Part shown: positions 17,164-26,359 of the stretch, in pieces
Layout: every line of letters begins with the position of its first letter
Numbering within the stretch: position 1 is the stretch's first letter
Source of the DNA: Pseudonocardia humida
Lineage (GTDB): Bacteria > Actinomycetota > Actinomycetes > Mycobacteriales > Pseudonocardiaceae
Reading direction: 5' to 3'
NCBI RefSeq assembly: GCF_023898865.1
Contig: NZ_JAGSOV010000010.1
Coordinates: forward strand, 62,001 to 126,000
Length of the DNA stretch: 64,000 nucleotides
Program-made: the position numbers and the translations under genes
The notes under the pieces: model-generated
Seen by the model: the letters and a program-made list of their open reading frames with translations, nothing else
What the model was told of the DNA's origin: nothing
Database searches by the model: none

Positions 17164-17895
17164 GTGTACCGGGTCTTCGAGTCGCTCGACGCGCTCGTCA
17201 CGGTCGTCGAGGAGGCCCGCGGCGTCCCGATGACGGCGAACTGCGTCGTGCCCCGCGGCGACGTCCTCGAGCTGCTCGACGACGTCCGCGAGGCCCTGCC
17301 CGGCGAGCTCGACGACGCCCAGGACGTCCTCGACCGGCGCGACGAGCTGGTCGACGACGCCGCCCAGGAGGCCGAGCAGACCCGCTCCAGCGCCCGCTCC
17401 GACGCCGAGCAGATGGTCGCCGAGGCCCGCGCGGAGGCGGAGCGGACGGTCGCCGAGGCCCGCGCCGAGGCCGAGCAGCTGCTCGCCCACGCCCGCCACG
17501 ACGCCGAGCGCAACATCGCCGAGGGCCGCCGCCAGTACACCGAGCTGACCGACCGCGCCACCGCCGACGCCGAGCGGATCGCCCAGGCGGGCCGGGCCGC
17601 GCACGACCGCTACATCGCCGACGGCCAGGCCGAGCAGGCCCGCCTCGTCGCGCAGACCGAGGTCGTGCGGGCCGCGCAGGCCGAGGCCACCCGCCTCGTC
17701 GACGAGGCCGACGCCGAGGCCGACCGGCTGCGCCGCGAGTGCGACGGCTACGTCGACGCCAAGCTGGCCGAGTTCGAGGAGACGCTGACCAAGGCCCTGC
17801 GCACGGTCACCCGCGGGCGCAGCCACCTCTACCGCGGACACCCGGCCCCCGTCCCCAACGGCCGCACCGGCACCGGGATGGACCTGATCGACTGA
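17164..17895 (+). CDS. sepIVA: SepIVA-type septation protein (DivIVA-like coiled coil)
   Basis: This 243-residue coiled-coil protein strongly resembles the mycobacterial septum factor SepIVA (Rv2927c), with a YRVFE-LD start, EEARGVPMTANCVVPRGDVLELLDD, LPGELDDAQDVLD, and then long Ala/Glu-rich heptads ending ECDGYVDAKLAEFEE. In mycobacteria SepIVA is needed for septation and works near the inner membrane. Its position after coaD matches the mycobacterial order, although there yceD follows, whereas here ~8 kb of other genes intervene. GTG at 17164 lies 6 nt after CAGAAT (17152-17157), so it is probably leaderless. Confidence 0.92.
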   Translation: MYRVFESLDALVTVVEEARGVPMTANCVVPRGDVLELLDDVREALPGELDDAQDVLDRRDELVDDAAQEAEQTRSSARSDAEQMVAEARAEAERTVAEARAEAEQLLAHARHDAERNIAEGRRQYTELTDRATADAERIAQAGRAAHDRYIADGQAEQARLVAQTEVVRAAQAEATRLVDEADAEADRLRRECDGYVDAKLAEFEETLTKALRTVTRGRSHLYRGHPAPVPNGRTGTGMDLID

Positions 17896-17961: not shown

Positions 17962-19089
17962 GTGGTGCGGCAACAGCCCGAGCCGGATCCGTCGTCCTGG
18001 TGGGACCGCTACGGCCATCGGGTCGTCGCCGGGCGCGACCGCGCGGGGACGGGACTATTCGGGGGCACTGTGCACGAGACGGGCTCGGCCGCGGCCGACG
18101 GCGGCGGAGACCCCGCCACCGACACGACGACGGCCACGGCCGTCAGCGCCGACAGCGGGTCCGACCCGGCCGACGAGACCGCCCGCGAGGAGCTGACCGG
18201 CGAGAGCATCCTGCGCGTCCGCCCCGACGAGCCGTCCTTCGGGTGGCGCCGCGCGCTGCTGCGGGCCACCGGGGGACTGGTGAACCCCGGGCCCGGCGCC
18301 GAGGAGCTGCGCCGCCGCGAGGTCCTGCACCGCATCCGCCGACCGCTCGTGCGCTCGCACCGCATCGCGGTCACCTCCATCAAGGGCGGCGTCGGCAAGA
18401 CGACCGTGTCGACGCTGCTCGGCCTGGTCATGGCCGAGCACCGGGGCGACCGGGTCATCGCGCTGGACGCCAACCCCGACGCCGGCACCCTGGCCGACCG
18501 GCTCACCGGCGAGTCCTCGGTCACCGTCCGTGAGCTGCTGCGCGACCTGCACCGCATCGACTCCTGGACCGAGGTCTCGCGCTACACGAGCCTGGCCGGG
18601 CGGCTGCAGGTGCTGGCCTCCGAGCAGGACCCGGCCGCCGGCGACGCCTTCAACCGCCAGGAGTACGAGCAGATCTGCGCCCTGCTCGACCGCTTCTTCA
18701 ACGTCATCATCACCGACTCGGGCACCGGGCTGGTGCACTCGGCGATGGAGGGCACGCTGAAGCTGGCCGACAGCGTGATCATCGTCGGGGCGCCCACCGT
18801 CGACGGCGCGGGCCGCGCGGCCAAGACGCTGGACTGGATGCACGCCCACGGGCACGGCCCGCTGGCCGCCGAGGCCGTCGCCGTGCTGTCGTGCGACCGC
18901 ACCAGCGTCGAGGTCGACCTGCCCCGCATCCGCGAGCACTTCGCCTCCCGGTGCCGGGCGGTCATCGAGATCCCCCACGACCCGCACCTGGCCACCGGCG
19001 GCCGGGTCCACCTCGACCGGCTCCGCCCCCGCACCCGCGACGCCGCCTACGAGCTGGCCGCCGCCATGGCGGACCGGTTCGTGCCGTGA
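17962..19089 (+). CDS. EspI-like MinD/ParA-family ATPase A
   Basis: This 375-residue P-loop ATPase has a ~130-residue low-complexity N-terminus and a GWRRALLRATGGLVNPGPG motif. The deviant Walker A KGGVGKTT follows (about 141-148), then RGDRVIALDANPDAGTLADRL and TDSGTGLVHSAM. The combination of the GWRR motif, RGDRV-A-DA-PDAGTLADR and DSGTG resembles the MinD-like ATPases linked to type VII (ESX) loci, such as mycobacterial EspI, rather than plasmid ParA or septum MinD. There is no amphipathic MinD tail. GTG at 17962 is probably leaderless. The stop overlaps the start of ATPase B by 4 nt. Role unknown. Confidence 0.82.
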   Translation: MVRQQPEPDPSSWWDRYGHRVVAGRDRAGTGLFGGTVHETGSAAADGGGDPATDTTTATAVSADSGSDPADETAREELTGESILRVRPDEPSFGWRRALLRATGGLVNPGPGAEELRRREVLHRIRRPLVRSHRIAVTSIKGGVGKTTVSTLLGLVMAEHRGDRVIALDANPDAGTLADRLTGESSVTVRELLRDLHRIDSWTEVSRYTSLAGRLQVLASEQDPAAGDAFNRQEYEQICALLDRFFNVIITDSGTGLVHSAMEGTLKLADSVIIVGAPTVDGAGRAAKTLDWMHAHGHGPLAAEAVAVLSCDRTSVEVDLPRIREHFASRCRAVIEIPHDPHLATGGRVHLDRLRPRTRDAAYELAAAMADRFVP

Positions 19090-20069
19090 CCGGCGGCCCC
19101 ACCGCCCCCGACCAGCCCACCACCAGCGCGGCCGCCCTCGCCGAGGACGCCATCGTCCGGTTCCGCGGCGACCGCCCCCGCCACGGCTGGCGCCGGGCGG
19201 TGCTGCGGCTGTCGGGCGGGCTGGTCAACCCCGGGGTCGGGCCCGAGGAGGAGCTGCGCCAGCAGTACCGGGCGCGGATCCGCGGACCGCTGCCCGGACC
19301 GCACCGCATCGCCGTCGGGTCGATCAAGGGCGGGGTCGGCAAGACGACCGTCGCCGCCTGCCTGGGGCTGGTGCTGGCCGAGAACCGCGGCGACCGGGTC
19401 GCCGTGCTCGACGCCGACACCGACGCCGGCACCCTGGCCGACCGCCTCGGCGTCGACACCGCCGAGTCGATCCGCGGGCTGGTCGACTTCGTCGCCGCGC
19501 AGCCCGGCCCGGTCACCGCGCTCACCGACGTGGCCCCCTACCTCGGGCTCTCCGGGCGCCTGCACGTGCTGGCCTCCGACCAGAGCCCGACGGTGAGCGA
19601 AGCCCTCGGGCCGGCCGACTACGAGCTGGCGAGCGAGGTGCTCACCCGCTTCCACGACATCGTGATCACCGACTCGGGCACCGGCATGGTGCACCCGGTC
19701 ATGCGCGCCACCCTGCGGGGGGCCGACGGCCTGGTCGTGGTGGGCAGCCCCACCGTGGACGGCGCCAGCCGGGCCGCCCAGACCCTGGACTGGCTCGACG
19801 CCCACGACCACGGCGACCTGGCCGCCGACGCGGTGGTCGCGCTGTCGATGGACCGCAGCAGCGACGCGGTGGACGTGCGGCGGGTGCGCGAGCACTTCGC
19901 CCGCCGCTGCCGGGCGGTCGTCGAGGTGCCCCACGACCCCCACCTGGCCACCGGCGCCGTGATCGAGCCCGCCCGCCTGGCCCAGCCGACGCTGGACGCG
20001 TTCCTGGAGATGGCGGCGCTGCTGGCCGACCGGTTCGGCCGCGCGGCAGCCCCGCCCGCCCGCGCCTGA
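19086..20069 (+). CDS. EspI-like MinD/ParA-family ATPase B
   Basis: A 327-residue paralogue of the upstream ATPase with a short N-terminus (~30 residues), HGWRRAVLRLSGGLVNPGVG, Walker A KGGVGKTT (81-88), RGDRVAVLDADTDAGTLADRL, DSGTGMVHPVM and a conserved tail region VPHDPHLATG. The GTG overlaps the ATPase A stop (GTGA), so A and B form a coupled pair. Like A it lacks DNA-binding and membrane segments. Two different MinD-type subunits could form a heterodimer (inference). A strong hairpin follows the stop. Confidence 0.82.
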   Translation: MTGGPTAPDQPTTSAAALAEDAIVRFRGDRPRHGWRRAVLRLSGGLVNPGVGPEEELRQQYRARIRGPLPGPHRIAVGSIKGGVGKTTVAACLGLVLAENRGDRVAVLDADTDAGTLADRLGVDTAESIRGLVDFVAAQPGPVTALTDVAPYLGLSGRLHVLASDQSPTVSEALGPADYELASEVLTRFHDIVITDSGTGMVHPVMRATLRGADGLVVVGSPTVDGASRAAQTLDWLDAHDHGDLAADAVVALSMDRSSDAVDVRRVREHFARRCRAVVEVPHDPHLATGAVIEPARLAQPTLDAFLEMAALLADRFGRAAAPPARA

Positions 20070-20115
20070 CACGGCCCGGGAGCCCTCCTGGAGCAGGCGC
20101 GAGCCCACCGGAACG

Positions 20116-20151
20116 GCGACCGCCGCGCACCCGGAGGTGCGCGGCGGTCGC
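20116..20151. terminator. Bidirectional terminator between ATPase B and the repeat membrane protein
   Basis: A perfect 16-bp stem (20116-20131 with 20136-20151) closes a CGGA tetraloop between convergent stops. It is one of the strongest hairpins in the window. Confidence 0.85.
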
Positions 20152-20185
20152 GGAGCGGTCCGCGGCGGGGGCGGACGGTGCTGGT

Positions 20186-22888
20186 CTAATCGTCGCCGGA
20201 CTTCTCCGACTTCTTCTCCTTGGACTCCGACTTCTCGGACTTGGAGTCCTTGTCGTCCGACTTGCTGCCCTTGTCGTCGGACTTGCTGCCCTTGTCGTCG
20301 GACTTGGAGTCCTTGTCCTCGGACTTGCTGCCCTTGTCGTCGGACTTGGAGTCCTTCTGCTCGGACTTGCTGCCCTTGTCGTCGGACTTGGAGTCCTTCT
20401 GCTCGGACTTGCTGCCCTTGTCGTCGGACTTGGAGTCCTTCTGCTCGGACTTGCTGCCCTTGTCGTCGGACTTGGAGTCCTTCTGCTCGGACTTGCTGCC
20501 CTTGTCGTCGGACTTGGAGTCCTTCTGCTCGGACTCGCTGCCCTTGTCGTCGGACTTGGAGTCCTTGTCCTCGGACTTGCCGCCCTTGTCGCCCGCCTTG
20601 CGGTCCTTGTCCCCGGACTTGTCCTGCTGGGCGGGCTTCTTGACGTCCTGCTTGTCGCCGGGCTTCTTGACGTCCTGCTTGTCGCCGGGCTTGTTGTCGG
20701 GCTTCTTGACGTCCTGCTTGTTGTCGGACTTGTTGTCGCCGGCCCCGGGCTTCTCGTTGTCGGCGGGCTTGGCGTGGCCGCCGCGCTTGTCGTCGCCGGG
20801 CTTCTGGTCGCCGGGCTTCTGGTCGCCGCCGGGCTTGCCGTGGTCGCCCGGCCCGCCGTGGCCCTTGTCGCCGTGGCCCTTGTCGCCGTCCACGTCGCCG
20901 GGCTTGTCGTGGCCCTCGTCCTCGGACTCGTCGCCGCCTGGGTTCAGGACGCCGTCGTGACCGCCGGACTCGTCGCCGCCCTCGTCGCCAGGCCGGTCGT
21001 CGCCCTTGTCGCCGGGTCGGTCGTCGGACTTGTCGCCACCGGGGCTCAGGATGCCGCCGAGGTGGCCGTCGTGACGGTCGGACCTGTCGTCGGAATCGTC
21101 GTCGTCCTCGTCGCCCGGCTTGTCGCGACCCTCGTGCTCGTCCTTCTCGTCGGACCTGTCTGCGCCCTTGTCGTCGGACTCGTCGTCCCTGTCGCCACCC
21201 GGGTTCAGGATGTCGTCCAGGTGATCGCCCAGGCCGCCGCGGTCGCGGTCGGAGTCGTCGTCCGACCCGCCGTGCTCCGAATCCCGGTCGTAGCCACCGT
21301 CGTCGGAGCGCGAGTCGGACCCGTGGTCGTCGGACTCGTCGCGGTCGGAGCGGTCGTCGTCGCGCGAGGAGTCGTCGCCGACGCGGTCGAACCACTGCGC
21401 ACCGTCGCCGTCGGACCGGTCGTCGGACCCGTCGCCGCCCAGGACCTGCGCGGCCAGCCGCTCGGCCTTGCCCATCGGGCGGGCCGACTCGCCGCCCTCG
21501 GCCGGCGCGAGGCCGGCCGGCATGGCGAGCACCGAGACGTCGCCCCGCTCGCCGCGGGACTCCCGGGACTCCTCGCGGTCCCGGTCCCGGTCGCGGTCCC
21601 GGTCGCCACCGGCGGCCAGCACCTCGCGCGACGGGTCGGGCGGGGCGGTGCGGCCGACGTCCTGGCGCTCGCGCTCGTGCGAGCCCCGGCGCGGCAGCGT
21701 GGCCTCCGGGTGGTGCGGCCGGTCGACCTTCGACGGCGGGGGCGTCGGGTCGGGGAGCCCCTCGATGACCTGCTTGACCCGCTGGACCACCGGGCTGGTG
21801 TGGTCCTCGACGTCGGGCATGGGCATGGCGAGCATCTTGTCGACGCCGTCGCGCAGCTGCTCGAGCTCGCGCTGGTTGCGCTCGTGCTGCTGCTCCTGCA
21901 GCTTGCGCTGCTGCTCGAGCTGGCGGCTCGCCTCGACCTGGTCGATCGAGGACGTCGCCGGGGCCGTGCTGAGCGCGCGCTCCATCGAGTCCAGCTCGGC
22001 CTGGGTGGCGGTCAGCTCGGCGCTGACCTCGGGCAGCGACCGCACCGTCGCCAGCTGCGACTCCAGGGTGACCCGCTGCTGCTCGAGCAGGGACTTGCGG
22101 TCGAGCAGGGCCTGCACGGCCGCGGGCGGCCGGTTGCCGCGGCGCGCCTCGGGGATCTGCAGCCAGCCGGCCTCGGCCTGGGCCGCGGCGTCGAGCTGCT
22201 TGTTGATGGAGGCCAGCGCGACCTCGGCGCGGGTCTCCCACTGGCTGGCGGCCAGCGCCGGGTCGGGCGCCGGCGGGACGGTGGTCGACGGCTGGTCGGG
22301 AGCCAGGTCGGTGGTCAGGATGTAGCTCCCGCCACCGGCGATCAGGCTCACCACGGCGAGGCTGGCCACGGCGCGCCTGCGCAGCAACGGACCGGCCGTG
22401 TCGCGCTCGAGCGGCTTGCGCGTGCGCGGCACCCGGCGGCTGGTCAGCCGGCGCGGCGTGGCGCGCCCCTTGCCGTCCGCACCGAGCGCGCCCGCACCCG
22501 CCGCGGCACCGCCGGTCGACGCCGCCGCGGCCGCGGGGCGCTCCTCGTCGGAGTCCGGCTCGGGGACCGGCTCGGGGACCGGCGCCTCGACCGGCGCCTC
22601 GTCGGGGCGGGGACGGACGGGTGTCGCGTCGCGAGCGGTGTCGTCACCGGTGGTGTCGGCGGGGACCACGTCGGGCGCCGCGCCACCGGCGGCCGGCGCC
22701 GCGACCGCGGCCACGTCGGTCGTCGGATGGGGTGTCGGATCGGTCGACGTGCGCGCCACCTGGCGCTGCTTGCGGGCGGCGGCGCGGTGCGCCGCCGAGC
22801 AGTACAACCGCCTGGGTCCGCCGTCGGCGGATTGTTCGATGGCTTCTTCGCACCCGTCCAGTGCGCACCGCATCGGTTCATTGCTCAT
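20186..22888 (-). CDS. Zinc-finger, single-pass membrane protein with coiled coil and long KDSKSDDKGSKSEQ-repeat tail
   Basis: I do not recognise this 900-residue protein as a known family. Residues 1-42 hold a likely treble-clef zinc finger (C8, C13, Y29-C30-S and H34). Residues ~45-165 are Pro/Ala/Asp-rich. One transmembrane helix lies at ~173-192 (AVASLAVVSLIAGGGSYIL). Residues ~211-350 are predicted coiled coil (ALASINKQLDAAAQAEAGW, QLEQQRKLQEQQHERNQREL). The remaining ~500 residues are low-complexity Asp/Ser/Lys/Gly, ending in eight near-identical 14-residue repeats. Topology suggests the zinc finger inside and the coiled coil and polyampholyte tail outside (inference). A candidate GntR site lies 19-34 bp upstream of the ATG. 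Confidence 0.75.
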   Translation of the reverse strand: MSNEPMRCALDGCEEAIEQSADGGPRRLYCSAAHRAAARKQRQVARTSTDPTPHPTTDVAAVAAPAAGGAAPDVVPADTTGDDTARDATPVRPRPDEAPVEAPVPEPVPEPDSDEERPAAAAASTGGAAAGAGALGADGKGRATPRRLTSRRVPRTRKPLERDTAGPLLRRRAVASLAVVSLIAGGGSYILTTDLAPDQPSTTVPPAPDPALAASQWETRAEVALASINKQLDAAAQAEAGWLQIPEARRGNRPPAAVQALLDRKSLLEQQRVTLESQLATVRSLPEVSAELTATQAELDSMERALSTAPATSSIDQVEASRQLEQQRKLQEQQHERNQRELEQLRDGVDKMLAMPMPDVEDHTSPVVQRVKQVIEGLPDPTPPPSKVDRPHHPEATLPRRGSHERERQDVGRTAPPDPSREVLAAGGDRDRDRDRDREESRESRGERGDVSVLAMPAGLAPAEGGESARPMGKAERLAAQVLGGDGSDDRSDGDGAQWFDRVGDDSSRDDDRSDRDESDDHGSDSRSDDGGYDRDSEHGGSDDDSDRDRGGLGDHLDDILNPGGDRDDESDDKGADRSDEKDEHEGRDKPGDEDDDDSDDRSDRHDGHLGGILSPGGDKSDDRPGDKGDDRPGDEGGDESGGHDGVLNPGGDESEDEGHDKPGDVDGDKGHGDKGHGGPGDHGKPGGDQKPGDQKPGDDKRGGHAKPADNEKPGAGDNKSDNKQDVKKPDNKPGDKQDVKKPGDKQDVKKPAQQDKSGDKDRKAGDKGGKSEDKDSKSDDKGSESEQKDSKSDDKGSKSEQKDSKSDDKGSKSEQKDSKSDDKGSKSEQKDSKSDDKGSKSEQKDSKSDDKGSKSEDKDSKSDDKGSKSDDKGSKSDDKDSKSEKSESKEKKSEKSGDD
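20241..20597 (-). repeat. 42-bp tandem repeat array coding the polyampholyte tail
   Basis: On the plus strand the block starting TTGGAGTCCTT recurs at 20241, 20304, 20346, 20388, 20430, 20472, 20514 and 20556. All intervals are 42 bp except the first, which is 63. Central units are essentially identical at the DNA level. Each codes 14 residues on the minus strand, alternating Ser, Asp and Lys. An array like this should vary in length between strains. Confidence 0.9.
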
Positions 22889-23303
22889 GCCGGACCCCCC
22901 GTCCGACTGTGCAATCGCACTGCAACTCGCTCACTCCGACCCCCCGTTTCCGCCGTGCCCGGGCAGGCCACAATCAGGTGGAGCGACCTGCGCGGAGGAG
23001 AGCCGGGTGATCACGGGCCGTGCGCATCGTCCCCAGGACGGGACCTGCGCGGCGTCACCGGACCGGTGGTGCACCGTGGCTCTCCGTATCGCAACCTACG
23101 GGTCTTGTGCAAGGGCGTGCAAGCCGACGGACCTTAAATACAGTCGAAGCCTTCACGTTCGCCGCGCGACTCCTGAGGTATTTGATTGCGCATTCACGAA
23201 GATCCGTCCGATCGTACGCAGCTGCTGGTCCGCATGCGTAGGATCCGTCGGGACGCCGAGCCGTCGGCCCCTGTCGGCGATCCCTTGTCCGTCTCCTGTC
23301 AAG
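22889..23303. other. Intergenic region between divergent repeat protein and ATPase C
   Basis: These 415 bp hold no convincing gene. They contain a candidate operator (22907-22922), a GACCCCCCGT decamer repeated at 22893 and 22948, and GGAGAGCC/GGCTCTCC complementary blocks ~85 bp apart (22995 and 23078). A stretch from ~23090 to 23240 is visibly lower in G+C than its surroundings and includes TTAAATACAGT. It must contain both divergent promoters. I could not assign a riboswitch or sRNA. Confidence 0.5.
22907..22922. promoter_or_regulatory. Candidate GntR operator upstream of the repeat membrane protein
   Basis: CTGTGCAATCGCACTG carries the dyad GTGC-AATC-GCAC. It shares TGnGCnATCGCAC with the dyad inside the gntR promoter (24375-24390), matching 11 of 13 core positions. 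It lies just upstream of the ATG at 22888 on the minus strand. Confidence 0.45.
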
Positions 23304-24416
23304 ATGGGTGGTCCAGTCGTGCCCAAGCGGTCCTTCGCGCCGAACGGTGACGACGAGCCGGCGAGTGCGCCGCCGGTCGCGCCGCGGTTGCCGGTCCGTG
23401 CGGTCCCGCCCGCCGACGCTGTGGTCCCCGCCCGCGGATCGGCCTCCGACCTGACCGACCGCAGCATCGTCACCCACCGCGAGCGGGCGCCGCGCTCGGG
23501 CTGGCGGCGGCTGCTGCACCGGATCAGCGGCGGAGCCGTGCGGGTCGCCGACACGCCGGCCGAGCCGGCGCGCCGCGAGCGGGAGGCGCGGATCCGCCGC
23601 CCCCTCGCCGCCCCGCACCACATCGCGGTCGTCTCGCTCAAGGGTGGAGTCGGCAAGACGACCGTCACGGCCGCGGTCGGGCTGGTGCTCGCGGAGCTGC
23701 GCGGCGACCGGGTCGCCGTGCTGGACGCCGACCCCGACGGCGGCACGCTGGCCGACCGGCTCTCCGGCGAGTCCACCGTGTCGGTGCGCGACCTGGCCGC
23801 CCGGGCCGAGCGGATCCGGGCGCTGCCCGAGCTGGCCCGGTTCACCAGCCTGTCCGGGCGGCTGCAGGTGCTGGCCTCCGACCAGGACCCCCGCCGCCAC
23901 GACGCGCTCGACCGGGCCGGCTACGAGGCGGCCCACGCCACCCTGAGCCGGTTCTGCGACATCGTGGTCACCGACTCGGGCACCGGCATGGTCCACCCCG
24001 TGGTCGGCGGCACCCTCGACGCGGCCGCCTCGGTCGTCGTGGTCGGTTCGCTCACCGTCGACGGAGCCAGTCGGGCCGGGCGCACCCTGGACTGGCTCGA
24101 CGCCCACGGCTACGGCGAGCTCGCGGCACGGGCCGTCGTCGTGCTCTCCGCCGACCGGTCCAGCCCCGACGTCGACGCCGCCCACCTGCGCGAGCACTTC
24201 GCCCGCCGCAGCCGGGCCGTCGTGGTCCTCCCGCGCGACCCGCACCTGGCCGCGGGCGACCGCATCCGGCTCGCCGCGCTGCGACCCGACACCCGCGCGG
24301 CCGTCCTGGAGGTCGCGGCCCTGCTGGCCGACGAGTTCGACAGCGTCCCGCCGAGCCGGGCGAGCGGGGGATTGTTGAGCGATCGCACAAGCGGCGGAGT
24401 AGAGTTCGGCGGGTGA
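23304..24416 (+). CDS. EspI-like MinD/ParA-family ATPase C
   Basis: A third, 370-residue paralogue with SGWRRLLHRISGGAVRV, Walker A KGGVGKTT (about 113-120), RGDRVAVLDADPDGGTLADRL, TDSGTGMVHPVV and LPRDPHLAAGD. The GW-RR motif is kept but the NPG part seen in A and B is replaced by VADTP. The ATG at 23304 has little Shine-Dalgarno. GTG at 23319 (VPKRSF), with GGTGG 7 nt upstream, is an equally possible start. The last ~20 codons overlap the gntR promoter, and the stop overlaps the gntR GTG. Confidence 0.8.
   Translation: MGGPVVPKRSFAPNGDDEPASAPPVAPRLPVRAVPPADAVVPARGSASDLTDRSIVTHRERAPRSGWRRLLHRISGGAVRVADTPAEPARREREARIRRPLAAPHHIAVVSLKGGVGKTTVTAAVGLVLAELRGDRVAVLDADPDGGTLADRLSGESTVSVRDLAARAERIRALPELARFTSLSGRLQVLASDQDPRRHDALDRAGYEAAHATLSRFCDIVVTDSGTGMVHPVVGGTLDAAASVVVVGSLTVDGASRAGRTLDWLDAHGYGELAARAVVVLSADRSSPDVDAAHLREHFARRSRAVVVLPRDPHLAAGDRIRLAALRPDTRAAVLEVAALLADEFDSVPPSRASGGLLSDRTSGGVEFGG
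24375..24405 (+). promoter_or_regulatory. gntR promoter with internal dyad operator
   Basis: A -35 TTGAGC (24375-24380) and a -10 TAGAGT (24400-24405) are 19 bp apart. The -10 ends 7 nt before GTG 24413, a leaderless layout. The 16-bp dyad TTGAGCGATCGCACAA (24375-24390, 14 of 16 symmetric) overlaps the -35 and spacer, where an autorepressor would bind. Confidence 0.55.
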
Positions 24417-25108
24417 TCGCGGCCGACGCGGGTGACGTGCTCTCCGGGCTCCCGGCGCTGCCGAGGAGGTCGAGCACGGCCGAGTACGCGGCCGACGAGC
24501 TGCGCCGCCAGATCGCCGACGGCAAGCTGCCCCCGGGCACGAAGCTGCGCGAGGAGTCGGTGTCCGAGGCGTTCGGCATCTCCCGCAACACCGTCCGCGA
24601 GGCGTTCCGGCTCCTGGCCCACGAGCAGCTGGTCGAGCACGAGCTGCACCGCGGGGTGCACGTGCGCACCCTGTCCGCGGCCGACGTCCGCGACCTCTAC
24701 GCCACCCGCCGGCTGGTGCAGCCGCTCGGCGTCGACACCGTCATCGCCGACCCCGCGCGGTTGAGCGCGCTGCGCGAGCGGGTGGACACCGCCGTCGCCG
24801 CGGCCGCCCGCGGGGACTGGCACGCCGTGGGCACCGCCGACATCGACTTCCACCGCGTGCTGGTGGCCGGCTGCCGCAGCACGCACATCGTGGCGATGTT
24901 CGAGCGGGTGCTCGCCGAGCTGCGGCTGGCGTTCCTGCAGCTGCCCGACCGGCGCGAGCTGCACCTGCCCTACGTCGAGCGCAACCGGCGCATCGCCGAG
25001 CTGCTCTCCGCGGGCGACCGGGCCGGCGCGCTCTCCGAGCTGCGGGACTACCTCGACACCGCCGAACGCCACATCCTCGGCGTCCTCACCGCCGAATCCG
25101 CGGGCTGA
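24413..25108 (+). CDS. GntR-family transcriptional regulator (FadR/FCD subfamily)
   Basis: This 231-residue regulator has an N-terminal winged helix (AADELRRQIADGKLPPGTKLREESVSEAFGISRNTVREAFRLL in pieces, residues ~25-75) and an all-helical FCD ligand domain (~90-225). Conserved histidines appear in DIDFHRVLVAG and HLPYVERN-like positions, typical of metal or carboxylate sensing FadR members. It probably controls itself through the dyad in its own promoter and possibly the repeat membrane protein gene, whose upstream region has a matching site. Its ligand cannot be told from sequence. Confidence 0.9.
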   Translation: MIAADAGDVLSGLPALPRRSSTAEYAADELRRQIADGKLPPGTKLREESVSEAFGISRNTVREAFRLLAHEQLVEHELHRGVHVRTLSAADVRDLYATRRLVQPLGVDTVIADPARLSALRERVDTAVAAAARGDWHAVGTADIDFHRVLVAGCRSTHIVAMFERVLAELRLAFLQLPDRRELHLPYVERNRRIAELLSAGDRAGALSELRDYLDTAERHILGVLTAESAG

Positions 25109-25230
25109 TCGGGCGTCGGGTCCCGACCGGGGGTCCGCCCGGGCGGTCCGGGCAGCATCATGGGCGCGCCGACGCGCACCGGCCCCGCCGGGCCGGTCCG
25201 GCCCGACCCCGAACGACAGGAGCCCGCAGC

Positions 25231-25716
25231 ATGCGCACTCCCGCCCGTCCGTCGCCGTCGAGCACCGTCACGGCCGCGCTCGTCGCGCTCGCCGCGGGTG
25301 CTCTGCTGGCCGGTTGCGCCGGCAGCCCCATCCCCGGCAGCGCCCTCCCGTCCGCCGGGGGTGGCACGTCGCCCACCGCGGAACCCGGGCCCGACGGCGG
25401 CCCCGGTCCGACCGGGCCGGCCGAGGCGCGCGACCGGGAGGGCGCGTGCGAGGTGACGCTGTCGGGCCGGGGCAACATCCAGGTCAGCGGGGGCGGCACC
25501 CGGGCGGTCACCCGCAACGGCGCCACCTCGCTGGGCTGCGGCGACGGCCCGCTGCTCGGCGTCGAGGTCCAGGACGGCGGGGTCACCTTCACCCCGGAGG
25601 GCGGCCGGGCGGTGCGGATCGACTCCGGGCAGACCGCCCAGGTCGGCGACTACGAGATCACCGTCGACGAGGCCGCGGGCGACCGCGCCGAGTTCGTCGT
25701 GGTCCCGGCCGCGTGA
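25231..25716 (+). CDS. Small secreted lipoprotein, unknown function
   Basis: A 161-residue protein with a lipoprotein signal peptide: basic start, hydrophobic core ALVALAAGALLAGC and a lipobox LLAGC, with the modified Cys at about 29. A Pro/Gly/Ser linker leads to a compact beta-rich domain (CEVTLSGRGNIQVSGGG ... GDYEITVDEAAGDRAEFVVVP) with two cysteines. GACAGGAG upstream gives a good Shine-Dalgarno. It may be the last member of the accessory island or an independent gene. No family recognised. Confidence 0.72.
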   Translation: MRTPARPSPSSTVTAALVALAAGALLAGCAGSPIPGSALPSAGGGTSPTAEPGPDGGPGPTGPAEARDREGACEVTLSGRGNIQVSGGGTRAVTRNGATSLGCGDGPLLGVEVQDGGVTFTPEGGRAVRIDSGQTAQVGDYEITVDEAAGDRAEFVVVPAA

Positions 25717-25777: not shown

Positions 25778-26359
25778 GTGAGCAGTTCCCGTTCCACCCC
25801 GACCGCGACCGGCCCGTGGGTCTTGAGCACCCGTGAGCTGGGCCGCGGTCCGGGCGCCATGCGCCAGTACACCCGCTCGATCCCGGCGCCCCCCGAGCCG
25901 GAGCGCTTCGGGGCGGAGACCATCGTCGTCCCGCCGGGTCGGCCCATCGAGCTCGATGTGCGCCTGGAGGCGGTCACCGAGGGCGTCTACGTCTCCGGCA
26001 CCGCCCGCACCGAGCTGGTCGGGGAGTGCGCGCGCTGCCTCGACGAGATCACCGAGGACGTCGAGGTCCGGATCGGTGAGCTGTTCGCCTACCCCGACAG
26101 CGTCACCGACGAGACCACCGACTCCGACGAGCTGCCGCGCGTCGTCGACGACCGCGTCGACCTGGAGCAGACCGTCCGCGACGCGCTCGTGGTCGACCTC
26201 CCGATGGCCCCCCTGTGCCGCGACGACTGCCCCGGTCTGTGCCCGGAGTGCGGCGAGCGCCGGGCCGACCTCCCGGCCGACCACGGGCATGAGACACTGG
26301 ACCCCAGGTGGGCTGCTCTCCGTGAGCGCTCGTCGTTGAACGACGCCGTCGCAGACTGA
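25778..26359 (+). CDS. YceD/DUF177 family protein (23S rRNA accumulation factor-like)
   Basis: This 193-residue protein has the YceD arrangement: [15 protein letters not shown] in the middle, [32 protein letters not shown] towards the end. The CxxC pairs are typical of the Gram-positive form. YceD family members act in 23S rRNA or L32-linked ribosome biogenesis and lie next to rpmF, as here. GTG at 25778 follows TATCCT (25766-25771) by 6 nt, indicating a leaderless start. Its synteny with rpmF-rnc-mutM is the resumption of the conserved block after the island. Confidence 0.93.

Follow-up and report, generated by a model that had tools for sequence, protein, structure and literature searches.

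Our analysis concerns a 64,000-nucleotide stretch of Pseudonocardia humida DNA (contig NZ_JAGSOV010000010.1, positions 62,001 to 126,000; hereafter the window), in which six genes (17962..25716) lie between yceD and a gene that we take, by synteny, to be sepIVA. They encode three MinD/ParA-type ATPases (A, B and C), a membrane protein with an N-terminal zinc finger (M), a GntR regulator and a lipoprotein. Our results revealed that in Pseudonocardia this type of finger recurs with this type of ATPase domain, either within a single protein or encoded side by side. In our judgment, the chances are about even that the island represents a MinD-type switch module, duplicated and specific to the genus, whose cycle would be controlled by the cytosolic finger of M. 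ATPases of the MinD/ParA type determine where division sites, flagella, plasmids and carboxysomes are placed; neither a description of the module nor a study of this branch's partner was found in the titles and abstract beginnings of the open-licence papers listed by our searches.

A 48-residue finger query gave 133 matches, with at least one in 60 of 62 Pseudonocardia genomes. Thirty of these had at least one of the 193 ATPase matches no more than 10 kb away: 12 in islands beside sepIVA, 3 on contig pieces of islands and 15 elsewhere. In 2000 trials of random placement, such cases averaged 1.5 and never exceeded 7; finger and ATPase lie close together far more often than that, in counts and a correlation that are not independent because the genomes and copies are related. 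Eight of the 15 non-island neighbours proved to be complete finger–ATPase fusions, from seven genomes. Three of them (genomes G010, G012 and G206) consist of the finger, a Pro-rich linker and a canonical ATPase; the other five (G014, G140, G207 and two in G208) join the finger to a diverged ATPase with the motif DCGP, and the next gene encodes a canonical ATPase. Sixteen further fusions were present among the 239 public ATPase proteins listed, all retrieved with a fusion query and none by the other ATPase search. One 819-residue protein (locus L226, G206:C1) contains the finger, an A-type ATPase, a transmembrane segment and a beta-propeller in a single chain, and a public protein of 749 residues (P0279) combines ATPase and propeller domains. 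Since the finger is fused directly to the switches in related genomes, M and the ATPases probably work together at the inner face of the membrane. A preliminary description of this DNA had guessed that the ATPases meet the N-terminal finger region of M, and had imagined MinD-type switches acting on a membrane scaffold; the natural fusions and the clustering back the former, and the latter is supported as plausible.

As a control, we classified a random 40 of the 82 remaining finger matches. Twenty-two were M-like, one was an ATPase fusion and 17 were neither; among these 17, three were cut by contig ends (one evidently a fusion), four looked spurious, and small finger proteins and members of a third large family are among the remainder. 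This result points to a finger domain that is somewhat promiscuous, with M as its main carrier in the sample. The third zinc-finger family (L224, L228 and L232) has a common C-terminal half of about 415 residues with 54–56% identity.

M (20186..22888, minus strand; 900 residues) was analyzed by hydropathy, composition, an AlphaFold2 model and family alignments. The zinc finger, with the pattern C-x4-C...YC-x3-HR, occupies about residues 8–35 and is followed by a Pro/Ala-rich linker and one hydrophobic segment (about residues 173–191) preceded by RRR. An N-in orientation is expected, which would place the finger on the cytosolic side. Long helices are predicted within residues 210–375, followed by a charged tail rich in D, G, K and S. 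In the model of residues 1–400, pLDDT was about 82–94 for the finger, mostly above 90 for the helices and low for the membrane segment. M is predicted to be a single-pass membrane protein with a cytosolic-side zinc finger and a helical outer domain. Searched against the PDB, the model found only nonspecific helical matches, none of which reached E 0.001.

The finger, membrane segment and coiled coil of M align with other copies at 30–50% identity to the window protein (alignments A2 and A4), and island M appears by sequence to be a diverged copy of a core M family, with which it shares these three parts and from which it differs in the tail. Core M adjoins a moeZ-like gene in three loci (L150–L152). 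In the P. humida genome (8.29 Mb in 129 contigs, of which C3, C9, C27, C67 and C78 are referred to here), the core copy is seemingly split across the ends of C9 and C67. With a core M query, 44 proteins were among the matches listed; those named by organism all belong to Pseudonocardia and none has an assigned function. In a profile survey of 150 genomes of the family, in which 12 candidates were scored per genome so that absence outside Pseudonocardia is not firm, M was detected in 7/7 Pseudonocardia, P. humida included. In another genus, two genomes matched in the coiled-coil part at E 1e-22 to 1e-25; matches in nine further genomes were weak.

A (17962..19089, plus strand), B (19086..20069, plus) and C (23304..24416, plus) are 53–59% identical to each other. 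Pfam assigns them to the CbiA/AAA_31 (MinD/ParA) group, with CbiA over the cut-off (A, CbiA 38 bits and AAA_31 34 bits; C, CbiA 44.8 bits). As the preliminary description had recognized, all three retain GWRR...GG, KGGVGKTT and DSGTG; KGGVGKTT is the deviant Walker A motif with the signature lysine that defines the superfamily. Judged by sequence, A, B and C belong in the MinD/ParA group, and their Walker motifs are complete. None of the three passed an NCBIfam cut-off: scores against TIGR01968 (septum site-determining MinD; cut-off 212.9 bits) were 38, 46.3 and 37 bits for A, B and C, and those against NF041546 (ParA partition ATPase; cut-off 180) were 32.4–34.5 bits. A search confined to the insert found neither MinC nor MinE among its six genes, and no ParB was present there. 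The branch is large: of 7996 proteins scored, 3046 belong to it at E 1e-10. The named matches of A were all from Pseudonocardia, the nearest from P. lacus (91%; 6 loci), and the closest relatives of the three ATPases appear to be Pseudonocardia paralogues, not ESX proteins. Amphipathicity of the GWRR segment was unremarkable (muH 0.48, ranking 53rd among the 365 windows of A), and no claim of membrane binding rests on that score. In six of the seven fourth-position ATPases of other islands (those of L044, L045, L048, L050, L051 and L177), the signature Walker A lysine is replaced by asparagine (SINGGVGKTT) and DSGTG by DSGSG. These copies are likely a conserved pseudo-ATPase.

The window has the gene order coaD–sepIVA–[insert]–yceD–rnc–mutM, which we checked against relatives. 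A sepIVA relative is present in 149 of 150 genomes of the family and in 62 of 62 Pseudonocardia genomes, and sepIVA directly precedes yceD in 23 of 23 loci fetched from other genera, the best-scoring of 142 other-genus genomes with a match. The insert is supported as an insertion relative to the order usual in the family, and the split order that the preliminary description had reported was borne out. An A-type ATPase lies on the same strand within 10 kb downstream of sepIVA in at least 51 of 62 Pseudonocardia genomes, a lower bound that leaves aside the weakest matches and is affected by contigs that end there. The 51 loci have one (29), two (11), three (4) or four (7) linked ATPases. Every locus with three or four ATPases (11 of 11) has the M finger within the island; among the 40 with one or two, G034 has it on the same contig, and G213 (P. 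lacus) and G220 have it on a separate contig piece that resembles the rest of an island. A GntR counterpart was found in six of the ten M-bearing loci compared, where it precedes the third ATPase, versus following C in the window. Since the arrangement recurs in other Pseudonocardia, it is not due to chance.

These data also bear on the possibility, which we regard as doubtful, that the position is without meaning: ATPases would have landed beside sepIVA in Pseudonocardia and undergone tandem duplication, and their work, whether with M or with other partners, would take place elsewhere and be unrelated to SepIVA. Consistent with this, ATPases of the same family occur at cytochrome c maturation/menA, plasmid, element-like, lnt-type and biotin loci (names assigned by reading the sequences), and in G003 and G016 sepIVA is followed directly by yceD, with no ATPase. 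However, the link to sepIVA in so many genomes, with a gap after sepIVA of only 46–246 bases in 25 of the 51 loci, speaks against this possibility, as does the tree of the ATPases (118 rows). Most first sepIVA-linked copies, A included, form one clade there (sep1; 36 rows, support 96/90); the first-position copies of G010, G012 and G206 instead group with the finger fusions. Most second copies form another clade (20 rows, 92/92), and the third- and fourth-position ATPases form further groups. B and C of the window lie on long branches (1.45 and 1.46) common only to P. lacus; several long branches meet, as the program warned, so the deep order of the tree is unsure.

In P. lacus the island is spread over two contigs, one carrying A and B and the other M (truncated at the contig end), C, GntR, the lipoprotein and yceD. 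Compared with P. lacus, dN/dS was 0.26 for A, 0.23 for B, 0.37 for C, 0.25 for GntR and 0.32 for the lipoprotein; values for neighbouring genes were 0.14 (coaD, sepIVA and pyc) and 0.19 (yceD). The island genes thus appear, from these ratios, to be under purifying selection. We rejected the idea that the island is strain-specific debris because it is also present in P. lacus and the island genes compared have these dN/dS values; the preliminary description had counted an island confined to one strain and bearing inactivating mutations as evidence against it, and this is not what was found.

Several observations weigh against the reading of the island as a finger-controlled switch module. In 37 of the 51 sepIVA-linked loci no M is seen there, although some contigs end nearby; the preliminary description had held that ATPases found without the membrane protein would speak against it, which applies to these loci and does not apply to whole genomes, nearly all of which carry an M-type finger somewhere. 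Four of the ten M-bearing loci lack GntR (one of them stops where its contig does), and the order of the genes varies. The finger also occurs outside M and the ATPases, given the 17 of 40 control matches that were neither by the test used, and it has only middling confidence in the structure model of a fusion. Core M beside moeZ has no neighbouring ATPase in the three loci fetched whole, and G018 has an M-type finger and no A-type ATPase at E 1e-20 in an assembly that is 88% complete. The relatedness of the genomes and copies counted belongs here as well.

Another origin, which we consider unlikely, is a domesticated mobile-element module, in which the ATPase/finger pair would have served DNA partition or conjugation, with the finger binding DNA and M tethering it to the membrane. 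A-type or related ATPases occur on 367 of 72,556 plasmid records. Furthermore, the element-like loci L158–L161 and L083 contain an A-type ATPase in the vicinity of VirB4-like, ParB-like or ImmR/ImmA-like genes, together with an M-type gene in L158–L161; these gene names come from reading the sequences, and the Pfam score of the VirB4-like protein was just under the cut-off. In contrast, no plasmid record matched the first 600 residues of core M at E 0.01, the island lacks ParB, and seven element-type ATPases form their own clade (100/93), which L161 joins at 87/88, outside the sepIVA clades.

Returning to the switch module, we propose that ATP-bound dimers of A, B or C would bind M via its N-terminal zinc finger, and perhaps also the membrane through the basic GWRR segment. 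Binding would cluster or position M together with envelope machinery contacted by the outer coiled coil and charged tail, and the finger with its basic tail would trigger ATP hydrolysis and release. The N-termini of MinE, ParB and McdB have such an effect on their ATPases, which serves as our analogy for the M finger. The GntR protein may set the level of the C branch. Contact between finger and ATPases, cycling and place in the cell are inferred, and the weakest step is that the module would act at growth or septation sites marked by SepIVA: gene order hints at a possible septal role, and adjacency in itself does not prove involvement of SepIVA. One study describes SepIVA as a septation factor in mycobacteria and as tip-associated and dispensable in Streptomyces venezuelae (PMC11571769). 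More tentatively, the island may represent a new type of MinD switch across the membrane, in which single-pass zinc-finger adaptors such as M gather paralogous ATPases into mixed arrays beside SepIVA, with a pseudo-ATPase in most four-ATPase islands and all parts in one protein in one relative. The natural fusions to the finger of a membrane adaptor offer a concrete, testable partner for the ATPases. With the island next to sepIVA, the question of whether polar or septal growth is organized by MinD-type switches can be put in a soil actinomycete, and the recurrent Lys-to-Asn copies would offer a natural experiment on mixed dimers.

The remaining genes agree with the preliminary description, which had listed the membrane protein, regulator and lipoprotein and proposed coupling of A with B and of C with gntR. 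B overlaps the stop codon of A by GTGA, and gntR (24413..25108, plus; GntR/FCD regulator, PF00392 59.7 bits and PF07729 51.8 bits) overlaps that of C in the same way. The lipoprotein gene (25231..25716, plus) encodes a signal peptide and a lipobox ending in LLAGC, as read from the sequence; its counterparts, 38–51% identical, lie near later ATPases of other islands. Neither M nor the lipoprotein matched a Pfam family at E 0.1. The upstream neighbour (17164..17895, plus) encodes a DivIVA-like coiled-coil protein with weak DivIVA/Wag31 matches, and yceD (25778..26359, plus) matches PF02620 with 97 bits. A codon-usage gene caller, trained on the locus itself with A, C and GntR among the training genes, called the same six genes and no others in the insert. 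The starts it preferred for A, M, C and the lipoprotein lie later; A may start downstream at GTG 18070, which had the best score, and the start preferred for C was 23319.

Comparison with known systems begins with the ESX-associated MinD proteins (EspI and kin), to which the preliminary description had likened the ATPases. A role for the island in regulating a type VII (ESX) secretion system in the manner of EspI is very improbable. A MinD/ParA protein from a plasmid-borne ESX locus of Mycolicibacterium arabiense is homologous, being 48% identical to A over 268 residues and containing KGGVGKTT and DCGTG; however, more than 300 residues precede its ATPase domain. Both MinD-like proteins of that locus, the one ESX locus sampled, fall into a separate clade (11 rows, 98/99, with long branches), together with res-locus proteins that include the P. 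humida one, relatives from other families of the order and a Rhodococcus plasmid protein. No ESX genes are present in the insert, as had been described, and those of P. humida lie elsewhere (EccB on C78, an EccC/EccD locus on C27). The C27 locus has a different MinD-like protein (L212, 7636-8451, minus strand) with a degenerate P-loop, CGGAGRST, which stands outside the tree. We rejected EspI membership because the tree places the sampled ESX relatives apart and the ESX genes are elsewhere in the genome; by sequence, "EspI-like" appears valid only as a statement of distant homology.

The ATPase of the cytochrome-maturation locus of P. humida (C3:25107-26153), presumably of the Rv0530 type by synteny, is likewise 48% identical to A and has GWRR and KGGVGKTT. 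It differs in having DCGTG and in lying beside resABC/ccsA-like and menA-like genes, a context found in this genome and one of another family (L064 and L078); L064 showed no zinc-finger protein. Hsp70-like genes and paired genes for dynamin-like GTPases are found close to an A-type ATPase in another family of the order (L074 and L075; names from reading). Structure matches obtained with a model of a close relative's fusion protein point to the same fold as in the positioning ATPases MinD, FlhG, ParA and McdA, with which A, B and C also share the deviant Walker A motif and its lysine, and a partner-controlled cycle is expected for all three. In contrast to these ATPases, to which they are about 20% identical, the island proteins have the N-terminal GWRR...GG segment, are encoded in an insert without MinC, MinE or ParB and as several paralogues per locus, and have a candidate partner in a transmembrane zinc-finger protein.

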